In this document: positions 23,090 to 27,212 of the stretch, piece after piece
How positions within the stretch are numbered: the first letter of the stretch is position 1
How the letters are laid out: every line of letters begins with the position of its first letter
NCBI GenBank assembly: GCA_015484845.1
Contig: WFUT01000230.1
Span: 1 to 32,284 of the forward strand
DNA: 32,284 nt
Reading direction: 5' to 3'
Source of the DNA: Desulfobulbaceae bacterium
GTDB lineage: Bacteria > Desulfobacterota > Desulfobulbia > Desulfobulbales > Desulfobulbaceae
Notes under the pieces: model-generated
Seen by the model: only the letters and a program-made list of their open reading frames with translations
Database searches by the model: none
What the model was told of the DNA's origin: nothing
Made by a program: the position numbers and the translations under genes

Positions 23090-23199
23090 ATTGACAAGGA
23101 AATCAGGTGGCCGCCGGCAGGATGGGCGCGGTCCCCGGCCGGCGGGGGCAGGGACCGTTGGCCGGCAGTGGCGCAGGCCGCGCCTGCCGGGGGAGTGTG

Positions 23200-24273
23200 A
23201 TGAGCAAGAGTATTCGACAACAGCTCGAGGAACAGGAGCGGCAGATCCTCTCTGCCCATGCCTGCCTGAGCTGCGAGTCCCGGGGGCGGCTGCGCGAGGA
23301 ACCGGATTTCTGCGACCTGCGCACGGTCTTTCAGCGCGACAGGGACCGGATCATCCATTCCAAGACCTTTCGCCGTCTCAAGCACAAGACCCAGGTCTTC
23401 CTGGCCCCGGCCGGCGACCACTACCGGACCCGGTTGACCCACGTGCTGGAGGTGGCGCAGATCGCCCGGACCATCGCGGTCTGCCTGCGCCTGAACGAGT
23501 ACCTGACCGAGGCCATCGCCCTGGGCCATGACCTGGGCCACACCCCCTTTGGTCATGCCGGCGAGTTCAGTCTCAACCAGCTGCACCCGGGCGGGTTCAA
23601 GCACTACCGGCAGAGCCTCAGGATCGTGGATTTCCTGGAAAACCACGGCCGCGGCCTGAACCTGACCTGGGAGGTGCGCAACGGGATCCTCAAGCATTCC
23701 AAGGGATACCGCGATATCCTGCCCGATGATTCCGTGGAGCTGCCGGCCACCCTGGAGGGGCAGGTGGTGCGGGTGGCCGATATCATGGCCTATGTCAACC
23801 ATGACATGGACGATGCCCTGCGCGCCGGCATGATCCGGGAGAGCGACCTGCCCGCCCACCTGCGGGCCGTGGTGGGCGACAACTCCTCGCTGCGCATCGA
23901 CGCCATGGTACGGGACCTGGTCTTCAACACCCTCAGGCAGGATGACGGCCGCCTGCACCTGAGCCCCCTGATGACCGAGACCATCACCGAGCTCCGCGCC
24001 TTTCTCTATGACCATGTCTACCGCAACTGGCGGGTGCATGCCGAGTTCGAGAAGGCGCAGCGGGTGATCAGGGACCTGTACGGGTTTTTCCTGGAGCACG
24101 AGTTTCCCGACGGCTCCGTCTCCACCTGCACCAGGAGAGAGCCGGTCAGCTCCGGGGAGGAGGAGAGGAAACGGCACCGCCGGGTCTGCGATTTCATCGC
24201 CGGCATGACCGACCGCTATGCCCTGGACCTCTACGAGCTGATCTTCATGCCCAAGCCGTGGTCCGTGCTGTAG
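23200..24273 (+). CDS. dgt: Deoxyguanosinetriphosphate triphosphohydrolase-like (dNTPase)
   Basis: A 357-residue HD-domain enzyme that splits dNTPs into deoxynucleoside and triphosphate. Metal-binding residues are visible: His81 in THVLEVAQIARTIA, His110-Asp111 in LGHDLGHTPFGHAGE, and Asp193 in RVADIMAYVNHDMDDAL. SCESRGR near residue 24 is typical of the family's opening. Length fits the shorter dNTPase class rather than the 505-residue E. coli Dgt. GGGGGAG four bases before ATG 23200 decides the start; the open frame continues to 23107 but without signal. It lies 221 bases after the Fe-S gene. Confidence 0.93.
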   Translation: MSKSIRQQLEEQERQILSAHACLSCESRGRLREEPDFCDLRTVFQRDRDRIIHSKTFRRLKHKTQVFLAPAGDHYRTRLTHVLEVAQIARTIAVCLRLNEYLTEAIALGHDLGHTPFGHAGEFSLNQLHPGGFKHYRQSLRIVDFLENHGRGLNLTWEVRNGILKHSKGYRDILPDDSVELPATLEGQVVRVADIMAYVNHDMDDALRAGMIRESDLPAHLRAVVGDNSSLRIDAMVRDLVFNTLRQDDGRLHLSPLMTETITELRAFLYDHVYRNWRVHAEFEKAQRVIRDLYGFFLEHEFPDGSVSTCTRREPVSSGEEERKRHRRVCDFIAGMTDRYALDLYELIFMPKPWSVL

Positions 24274-24297
24274 CGCGGTTGCCGGCCGGGCACCACC

Positions 24298-24341
24298 TCA
24301 ACCTCGTGACGCCGCTCTTTCAACCTCGTGAGACGGCTCTG
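24298..24341. repeat. Imperfect 22-bp tandem direct repeat
   Basis: Two units with a 22-base period start with the identical TCAACCTCGTGA (24298-24309 and 24320-24331) and then agree at 6 of 10 further positions. It lies at the start of the non-coding stretch between dgt and valS. Confidence 0.6.
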
Positions 24342-24405
24342 CGGTGTCAGGTAAGCAAGTGCAGGATTGAGGTCATACTGTGCGGCTGTGACCCGGAAGC
24401 CCGGT

Positions 24406-24540
24406 CCAGCCACGCTGGTTGTGCACGTCTGCGCCCTTGATGCCTTGCATCTCCGGCGTAATCGCCAATTGCAGGATGGAGGGGACAGTGGCCCGCTGCG
24501 GGTCATCTCCGTATCCTGCCAACATCTTAACCGTTTTTTT
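24406..24540 (+). other. Structured non-coding leader upstream of valS
   Basis: The sequence from dgt to valS (24274-24548) has no credible gene but is rich in short perfect hairpins: CCAGC-CAC-GCTGG (24406-24418), GATGC-CTT-GCATC (24439-24451), GGCG-TAAT-CGCC (24455-24466). A longer one pairs GCAGGAT (24471-24477) with ATCCTGC (24513-24519), GGAG with CTCC (24478-24481, 24507-24510) and a 6-bp top stem (24490-24504). A run of seven T ends at 24540. It could be an attenuator-type leader of valS or the remains of a small mobile repeat. It lacks the T-box consensus. Confidence 0.5.
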
Positions 24541-24548
24541 ATCGCATA

Positions 24549-27212
24549 ATGTCTGAGAAATACGATCTTCCCAAGGGATACGAATTCAAGGAGGTGGAGG
24601 GCCGCTGGTACCGCCGCTGGCTGGAACACAAGACCTTTGCCGCCACCATGGAGGAGGGCCGCGAGTCCTTTTCCATCGTCATCCCGCCGCCCAATGTCAC
24701 CGGCGTGCTCCACATCGGCCATGCCCTCAACAACACCCTGCAGGACATCCTGGTCCGCTACCACCGGATGAAGGGCGACAACACCCTCTGGGTGCCCGGC
24801 ACCGACCATGCCGGCATCGCCACCCAGAACGTGGTCGAGCGGCAGCTCGCCACCGAGAACCTGAGCCGGCACGACCTGGGCCGGGAGAAGTTCATAGAGC
24901 GGGTCTGGCAGTGGCGCACGGAAAAGGGCGGCACCATCATCAACCAGCTCAAGCGCATGGGCGCCTCCTGCGACTGGGACCGGGAGCGGTTCACCATGGA
25001 CGAGGGCCTGTCGCGGGCCGTGCGCGAGGTCTTTGTCCGGCTCTACAACGACGGCCTGATCTACAAGGGCGACTATATCGTCAACTGGTGTCCCCGCTGC
25101 CACACCGCCCTTGCCGACGACGAGGTGGAGCATGATCCCACCGAGGGCAGGCTCTACCATATCCGCTATCCCTATGCCGACGGCTCGGGGCACGTGGTGG
25201 TGGCCACCACCCGGCCCGAGACCATGCTCGGCGATACCGCCGTGGCCGTGCATCCCGATGACGAGCGCTACCAGGGGCTCAGGGACATCGGCATCAGCCT
25301 GCCGCTCACCGGCCGCACCATCCCGGTGGTCTATGACCACCACGTGCAGCGGGAATTCGGTACCGGCGCCCTCAAGGTCACCCCGGCCCATGACCGCGAC
25401 GACTACGAGATCGGCCTGCGCCACGACCTGGAGCGGATCAAGGTCATGGACGACCACGGCGTCATGAACGAGGCCGCGGGCCCCTATGCCGGCCTGGACC
25501 GGTTCGAGTGCCGGCGGCGCATCGTCGCCGACCTGGAGGAACAGGGATTTCTCGAGAAGATCGAGGACTACCAGCACGCGGTGGGCAAGTGCTACCGTTG
25601 CGGCACCGTGGTGGAGCCCACCACCTCCAGGCAGTGGTTCGTCTCGGTGCGGCCCCTGGCCGACAAGGCGGTGCAGGCGGTGCGCGAGGGCAGGATCCGC
25701 ATCTTCCCCAACACCTGGTACAACACCTTCTATGCCTGGATGGACAACATCCGCGACTGGTGCATCTCGCGCCAGATCTGGTGGGGGCACCGGATCCCGG
25801 CCTGGACCTGCCAGGCCTGCGGCGGCCTGACCGTGGCGGTCACGGACCCCGATGCCTGCTCCCACTGCGGCAGCAGCGAGATCGTCCAGGAAGAGGACGT
25901 GCTCGACACCTGGTTCTCGTCCGCGCTCTGGCCCTTCTCCACCCTGGGCTGGCCCGAGAAGACCCGGGAACTCGAGCTGTTCTACCCCACCTCGGTGCTG
26001 ATCACCAGTTTCGACATCCTCTTCTTCTGGGTGGCCCGCATGATGATGATGGGGCTGCACATCATGGAGGAGGTGCCCTTTCACGATGTCTACCTCCATG
26101 CCCTGGTCCGGGACAAGCATGGCAAGAAGATGTCCAAGTCCACGGGCAACGTGATCGACCCCCTGGACATGATCAAGACGTTCGGCACCGATGCCTTCCG
26201 TTTCACCCTGACCGCCTTTGCCGCCCAGGGCCGGGAGATCCGCATGGACGAGGAGCGGGTGGAGGGATACCGCCGCTTCATCAACAAGCTGTGGAACGCG
26301 GCCCGTTTCGCGCAGATGCACCTCAAGGACGAGGATCCCGGCATCACGGCCGTCACCGCCGATCCCGGCAGCCTGCCCCTGCCGCACCGCTGGATCCTCA
26401 GCCGTACCGACGCCACCATCCGCAAGGTGCTGGCGGCCATCGAGGGGTACAACTTCAACGAGATCGCCTCGGCCATCTACCAGTTCACCTGGCACGAGTT
26501 CTGCGACTGGTACCTGGAGTGGATCAAGGCCGATCTCTACGGGGATGACGAGCAGGCCCGGCGTAATGCCCGCGGCGTGCTCCTGGCGGTGCTGGAGAAT
26601 ATTCTGAAATTACAGCACCCGGTGACCCCGTTTGTCACCGAGGAGATCTGGAGCCAGCTGCCCGGCGAGCGCTCCTTCATCATGACCGAGCCCTATCCCG
26701 TGCCCGTGCCGGCCTGGCAGGACGCGGAGGCGGAGCAGGACATGGAACTGCTCATGGGCGTGATCTCCGGCCTGCGCACCATCCGCAGCGAGGCCGAGCT
26801 GCATCCCACTGCCAGGATCGAGGCCACCCTCATCTGTGCCGATGCGGCCAGGAGGGCCCTGCTCGAATCCTTTGCCACGGCCATCGGCGCCATGACCCGG
26901 GCCGGGCGGCTCGAGATCGTTGCCCGGGGCGAGGTGCCCGACGATGCCGGCCACGCCCTGTTCCAGGACGTGGAGATGGTGGTGCCCCTCAAGGGCCTCA
27001 TCGACGTGGCCGGGGAACTGGACAGGCTGGCCCGGGAACGGAAGAAGCTGGAAAAGGAGCTGGCCCGGGTCAGGGGCAAGCTGGCCAACGAGAAGTTCCT
27101 CGCCAAGGCGCCCGCCGCCGTGGTGGACAAGGAGCGGGCCAGGGAGGAGGAGCTGAAGACCCGGCTGGAGAAGAACGCCGAGTCCACTGCCAGGCTGAAC
27201 AGGCTCAACTAG
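24549..27212 (+). CDS. valS: Valyl-tRNA synthetase
   Basis: ValS charges tRNA-Val. The 887-residue class-I synthetase has the HIGH signature at residues 55-58 (PPPNVTGVLHIGH), KMSKS at 527-531, an editing (CP1) domain with TTRPETMLGDTAVAVHP near 220, and zinc-type CxxC motifs (CPRCH, CYRCG, CQACGG, CSHCG) in the middle. A coiled coil at the C terminus (about 822-887) fits the tRNA-binding arm. Length is normal. No ribosome-binding site precedes the ATG; the 20 bases before it are T-rich. The neighbouring nadC follows after 66 bases. Confidence 0.97.
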   Translation: MSEKYDLPKGYEFKEVEGRWYRRWLEHKTFAATMEEGRESFSIVIPPPNVTGVLHIGHALNNTLQDILVRYHRMKGDNTLWVPGTDHAGIATQNVVERQLATENLSRHDLGREKFIERVWQWRTEKGGTIINQLKRMGASCDWDRERFTMDEGLSRAVREVFVRLYNDGLIYKGDYIVNWCPRCHTALADDEVEHDPTEGRLYHIRYPYADGSGHVVVATTRPETMLGDTAVAVHPDDERYQGLRDIGISLPLTGRTIPVVYDHHVQREFGTGALKVTPAHDRDDYEIGLRHDLERIKVMDDHGVMNEAAGPYAGLDRFECRRRIVADLEEQGFLEKIEDYQHAVGKCYRCGTVVEPTTSRQWFVSVRPLADKAVQAVREGRIRIFPNTWYNTFYAWMDNIRDWCISRQIWWGHRIPAWTCQACGGLTVAVTDPDACSHCGSSEIVQEEDVLDTWFSSALWPFSTLGWPEKTRELELFYPTSVLITSFDILFFWVARMMMMGLHIMEEVPFHDVYLHALVRDKHGKKMSKSTGNVIDPLDMIKTFGTDAFRFTLTAFAAQGREIRMDEERVEGYRRFINKLWNAARFAQMHLKDEDPGITAVTADPGSLPLPHRWILSRTDATIRKVLAAIEGYNFNEIASAIYQFTWHEFCDWYLEWIKADLYGDDEQARRNARGVLLAVLENILKLQHPVTPFVTEEIWSQLPGERSFIMTEPYPVPVPAWQDAEAEQDMELLMGVISGLRTIRSEAELHPTARIEATLICADAARRALLESFATAIGAMTRAGRLEIVARGEVPDDAGHALFQDVEMVVPLKGLIDVAGELDRLARERKKLEKELARVRGKLANEKFLAKAPAAVVDKERAREEELKTRLEKNAESTARLNRLN

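Follow-up and report, generated by a model that had tools for sequence, protein, structure and literature searches.

The window analysed here is the whole stretch of 32,284 nucleotides, in which a dGTPase-like HD phosphohydrolase gene (dgt) is followed by valS in the same orientation, the interval between them (24274-24548) being gene-free. The features of this interval and its flanks are as follows.

23107-24273, + strand: dgt, the upstream neighbour (Pfam HD 4.9e-12, HD_assoc 1.8e-23); start codon uncertain
24286-24354, + strand: module A, decayed copy of an intergenic repeat that is palindromic and composite; aligned genome copies give the consensus ...CCGGGCGCCACCTCAACCTCGTGACACCGCTCTGCGGTGTCACG...
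24298-24340, + strand: tandem repeat of 22-bp units found by TRF, the minisatellite part of module A (TCAACCTCGTGACACCGCTC...)
24360-24373, + strand: lone right-end terminal repeat of the MITE, TGCAGGATTGAGGT, one mismatch from TGCAGGATTYAGGT, flanked by modules A and C
24381-24420, + strand: module C, a palindromic repeat GCGGCTGTGACCCGGAAGCCCGGTCCAGCCACGCTGGTTG, genome copies at 80-90% identity
24406-24418: short perfect hairpin CCAGC-CAC-GCTGG, read from the sequence
24425-24483, + strand: MITE 3' end fragment (element positions 188-240 of 246) that lacks the left part and has a degraded terminal repeat (TGCAGGATGGAGGG)
24439-24451: short perfect hairpin GATGC-CTT-GCATC, read from the sequence
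24455-24466: short perfect hairpin GGCG-TAAT-CGCC, read from the sequence
24471-24519, + strand: long hairpin, base GCAGGAT (24471-24477) / ATCCTGC (24513-24519), from sequence and fold
24534-24540, + strand: run of seven T (T7), 14 nt beyond the long hairpin, not conserved in the alignment with congener G002
24549-27212, + strand: valS, valyl-tRNA synthetase, 887 aa (Pfam tRNA-synt_1 2.7e-142, Anticodon_1, Val_tRNA-synt_C)

Folding of the interval and its repeat families

The tandem repeat, the short hairpins, the GCAGGAT/ATCCTGC hairpin and the T7 run that an initial annotation had described in this gene-free interval are all present. Its view that such dense pairing is unique among the gaps holds in part only. 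The predicted RNA fold of the gap has z = -2.19, with 6 of 200 shuffles equally stable, and ranks 7th among 117 windows of 275 bases from this contig, so that the pairing is real but only moderate and not extreme; what does single the gap out is that it is the sole site with clear matches to these repeat families, a search of the window having given no clear match in its other gaps. A terminator scan gave no intrinsic terminator before valS, and T7 is not part of one because 14 nt separate it from the long hairpin. There is no clear Shine-Dalgarno sequence before the valS ATG (24520-24548), and the same is true of congeners G001 and G002 (L208, L200).

When the gap was searched against its own genome (3.38 Mb in 233 contigs), the sequence matches showed it to be a mosaic made up of parts of three or more repeat families present there. 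Module A gives 44 genome matches including itself, the best other at E 7.6e-17, and 24286-24354 corresponds, in decayed form, to part of a longer composite repeat whose consensus is ...TGTTGCACCGCAGAGCGGTGCAACAAGAGC...CTCCGGGCGCCACCTCAACCTCGTGACACCGCTCTGCGGTGTCACG...; its tandem repeat has a period of 22 and two copies that are 85-86% alike, and the number of units differs among module A copies, with two in C32, three in C11 and five in C136. Module C sometimes lies downstream of module A in the genome, and a copy is also found upstream of valS in G001. Within the MITE fragment, 24425-24477 is 92% identical to the full copy L019 (E 1.4e-17), and this 53-bp stretch has about 40 copies at E <= 5e-14 in the same genome. 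The long hairpin at 24471-24519 is the MITE right end facing a partial inverted terminal repeat, and inverted repeats within these elements account for the hairpin pairing throughout the gap. The initial annotation, which had treated the gap as one element, was thus right about a MITE-like repeat and missed that several families are mixed there.

Palindromes that share a constant core, GCAGAGC, but have differing perfect stems occur in rows in the intergenic repeats of this genome (CGTGACACC, TGTTGCACC, TGCCC, GGGAC). Across L062, L070-L073, L075-L079 and other loci of the same genome, 48 hairpins carry stems of at least 6 pairs beyond the core CAGAG/CTCTG, some of them counted repeatedly where loci overlap, while two control core pairs give 1 such hairpin in the own-genome loci. 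None of these hairpins is present in the valS loci of the named relatives.

A mobile MITE family

The family to which the MITE fragments of the gap belong has a full length of 242-247 bp, starting with ACCTAAATCCTGCA and ending with TGCAGGATTTAGGT in the copies that were read and aligned, and is bounded by 14-bp terminal inverted repeats, ACCTRAATCCTGCA / TGCAGGATTYAGGT. Allowing up to one mismatch, the terminal repeat has 225 sites in the genome; a reversed control pattern has 1. The 40 complete elements read measure 38-259 bp end to end, the shorter ones being internally deleted, and none carries a transposase gene of its own. An exact 3-bp target-site duplication flanks 29 of these 40 and a match of at least 4 bp flanks none, while random pairing of the flanks gives a mean of 1.6 and a maximum of 6 duplications in 1000 shuffles; the count covers complete elements of this genome. 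Complete elements of only 38-72 bp (L034, L039, L040, L215, L223) still have exact 3-bp duplications.

Empty sites in the congeners bear this out. When the flanks of a copy are joined, one copy of the duplication is removed and the result is compared with the congeneric genomes, the joined flanks of L020 match G001 without the MITE in a gap-free alignment, those of L019 and L027 match G002 without the MITE with small gaps in the alignment, and those of L018 match G002 without the MITE by search alone. The alternative offered by the initial annotation, a small MITE-like repeat recurring in the genome, is therefore well founded, with some 40 copies of 24425-24477, the 225 terminal-repeat sites, the 3-bp duplications and the empty sites all pointing the same way, and the copy search that it had proposed for the same genome finds copies in abundance, which supports a mobile repeat. 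The element is present in 16 of the 96 genomes searched, its own counted, including one congener and other genera of the family; a search of a plasmid collection gave no copy.

A full MITE copy folds far more strongly than shuffled sequence, with z = -8.9 whether folded as DNA or as RNA. An alignment of 15 copies drawn from eight genomes has 56 stem pairs, of which 11 have changed at both partners; shuffles give 2.6 such pairs and sliding the partners gives 5 at most, a control that favours the structure because this was itself built from that alignment. The covariation put forward in the initial annotation as a sign of regulation does exist, but it goes with the mobile element at whatever site this occupies and not with valS. 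A peptide-like reading frame in the element (MRGIKGADVYEYFKPLITKQIR) is short, and stopped or broken in related copies, and the hairpin arms probably explain it better. Draft contigs start or end inside MITE copies at L006, L007, L010, L017, L021 and L026, and the element therefore probably breaks the assembly. A literature search of limited scope gave no paper on MITEs in Desulfobulbales, and the family appears to be undescribed, recently active and spread over several genera of one family, probably Desulfobulbaceae. Judged by its closest ValS relatives, the bacterium itself is probably an uncultured member of the Desulfobulbaceae.

Origin of the gap and its bearing on valS

We propose that the dgt-valS gap consists of fragments of a non-autonomous MITE of about 245 bp together with two palindromic repeats, one of which has a short tandem unit, and we hold this reading with high confidence. 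Its content is a set of decayed and probably inert remnants, and the MITE copies before valS, which are truncated and degraded, are expected to be immobile. The proposal to be set against it is a cis-regulatory leader for valS, which the initial annotation had raised as an attenuator-like element; such a leader would be an attenuator or a T-box-like RNA through which valyl-tRNA or valine sets valS expression. Its location directly upstream of valS and its predicted stable hairpins with a T run are what such a leader would offer, and the order dgt-valS is conserved in many relatives (named Desulfobulbus, Desulfocapsa, Desulfurivibrio and others), yet the gap itself is not. ValS of G002 is 97% identical over 323 residues and that of G001 is 91% identical over the whole protein, and in both congeners the coding flanks align while the gap does not, being 199 bp of unrelated sequence in G002 and 238 bp of other sequence, including the module C copy, in G001; alignment is possible only for a few tens of bases immediately upstream of the valS ATG. 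Several other relatives have a gap of 7-84 bp, and in others it contains an extra reading frame. An alignment upstream of valS in relatives, as the initial annotation had suggested, thus finds its stems missing even from the closest congeners. No Rfam family matches the gap at E <= 1, nor do three repeat-bearing loci match at gathering scores, the gap sequences recur genome-wide away from valS, and no terminator stands beside the T run. A leader would be expected to survive such turnover and debris would not, which argues strongly against a conserved valS attenuator; given this lack of conservation and of a terminator form, we reject the leader and see almost no chance of it.

The same gap shows other changes among relatives. 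At L201, L203 and L210 (G052, G041 and G047) it measures 720-980 bp and has an apparent extra reading frame (MESFSYW...), which marks it as a repeated site of change, and tandem heptamers of the GTGTCAG type lie right after dgt in several relatives (L202, L211, L200).

It is distinctly unlikely, in our estimation, that the repeat debris has been co-opted so as to modulate dgt-valS read-through or transcript stability. Some BIMEs in operons are reported, in passages of PMC3049150, to have such effects, the gap is a structured insert between two co-oriented genes with a moderate excess of folding, and its GGCG/CGCC hairpin differs on both sides from the GGCA/TGCC of the MITE consensus with pairing kept; this paired change is a single case in a single copy, however, and the structure is missing in the closest relatives. 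Still less probable, and indeed very improbable, is an intact composite element running from module A through module C to the MITE end and moving as a unit. Contigs C52 and C162 (L069, L073) do repeat the order of modules A and C, and on C150 and C222 the right end of a truncated MITE has a C-like module beside it, but the spacers and junctions vary from case to case and the three components are mostly found apart.

A transposase of the DDE type probably moves the intact MITE in trans, binding its ACCTAAATCCTGCA ends and making a staggered 3-bp cut, as the ends and target duplications of the MITE suggest, and its short forms may have arisen by loss of internal sequence. On this reading the dgt-valS gap is a site where small intergenic repeats land and then decay, the debris acting at most as a passive structured insert between dgt and valS. 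The genome gives no match to IS982, DDE_Tnp_1 or Y1 models and a single weak, distant rve match, and as the assembly is in 233 contigs an autonomous partner could be missing from the draft. The AC ends and short duplications suggest an IS982-type partner, but this genome has none, and no matching paired ends lie beside those IS982-like genes of relatives that were sampled. Nor did an IS4/IS5-type DDE partner emerge, there being none in the genome and no paired ends at the DDE loci of relatives (L226-L231), and for a Mu/IS3-type rve partner the genome offers one distant gene only; the end scan covered IS982- and DDE_Tnp_1-type loci. A REP/RAYT origin of the modules was likewise set aside, as neither the genome nor the two congeners have a Y1 transposase.

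MITEs and nested clusters of repeats are already a known kind, of which the valS gap is a new example. Passages of a review (PMC10969869) describe Chunjie, a 235-bp MITE of Geobacter uraniireducens, and the Coxiella elements QMITE1 and QMITE2, with QMITE1 copies of 39-321 bp that parallel the 38-259 bp seen here. The resemblance to these, as they are outlined there, extends to length (242-247 bp here), terminal inverted repeats, target duplications, a strong fold and many truncated copies, but the present element has a terminal repeat of its own, ACCTAAATCCTGCA, and a 3-bp duplication, and is likened to them by description only. The repeats of the gap resemble in organisation the BOX, RUP and SPRITE families of Streptococcus pneumoniae described in PMC3049150, where composite repeats have a central unit in tandem and several families form intergenic clusters, one repeat having inserted inside another; the bacteria are different and no sequence relation is claimed. 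With REP and BIME palindromes, modules A and C share their small size, their palindromic form and a frequent occurrence in series; the difference is that REP/BIME systems have RAYT, while no Y1/RAYT gene exists in this genome or the two congeners. Module A may belong to a palindrome family in which the core GCAGAGC/GCTCTGC stays constant while perfectly complementary stems (GTGACACCG, TGTTGCACCG, TGCCCG, GGGACG) are exchanged, and which would have spread without a recognised REP transposase; alongside a 38-bp MITE that still has a target duplication, this could reflect a palindrome-spreading process not yet described, an idea that we think unlikely and offer as speculation.

The suspicious leader before valS is thus explained as repeat debris, which removes a false lead towards a new riboregulator of valS. 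A further gain is a MITE family, apparently undescribed, with a very wide range of sizes, from 38 to 259 bp, and this MITE probably accounts for some of the assembly breaks in the draft genome.
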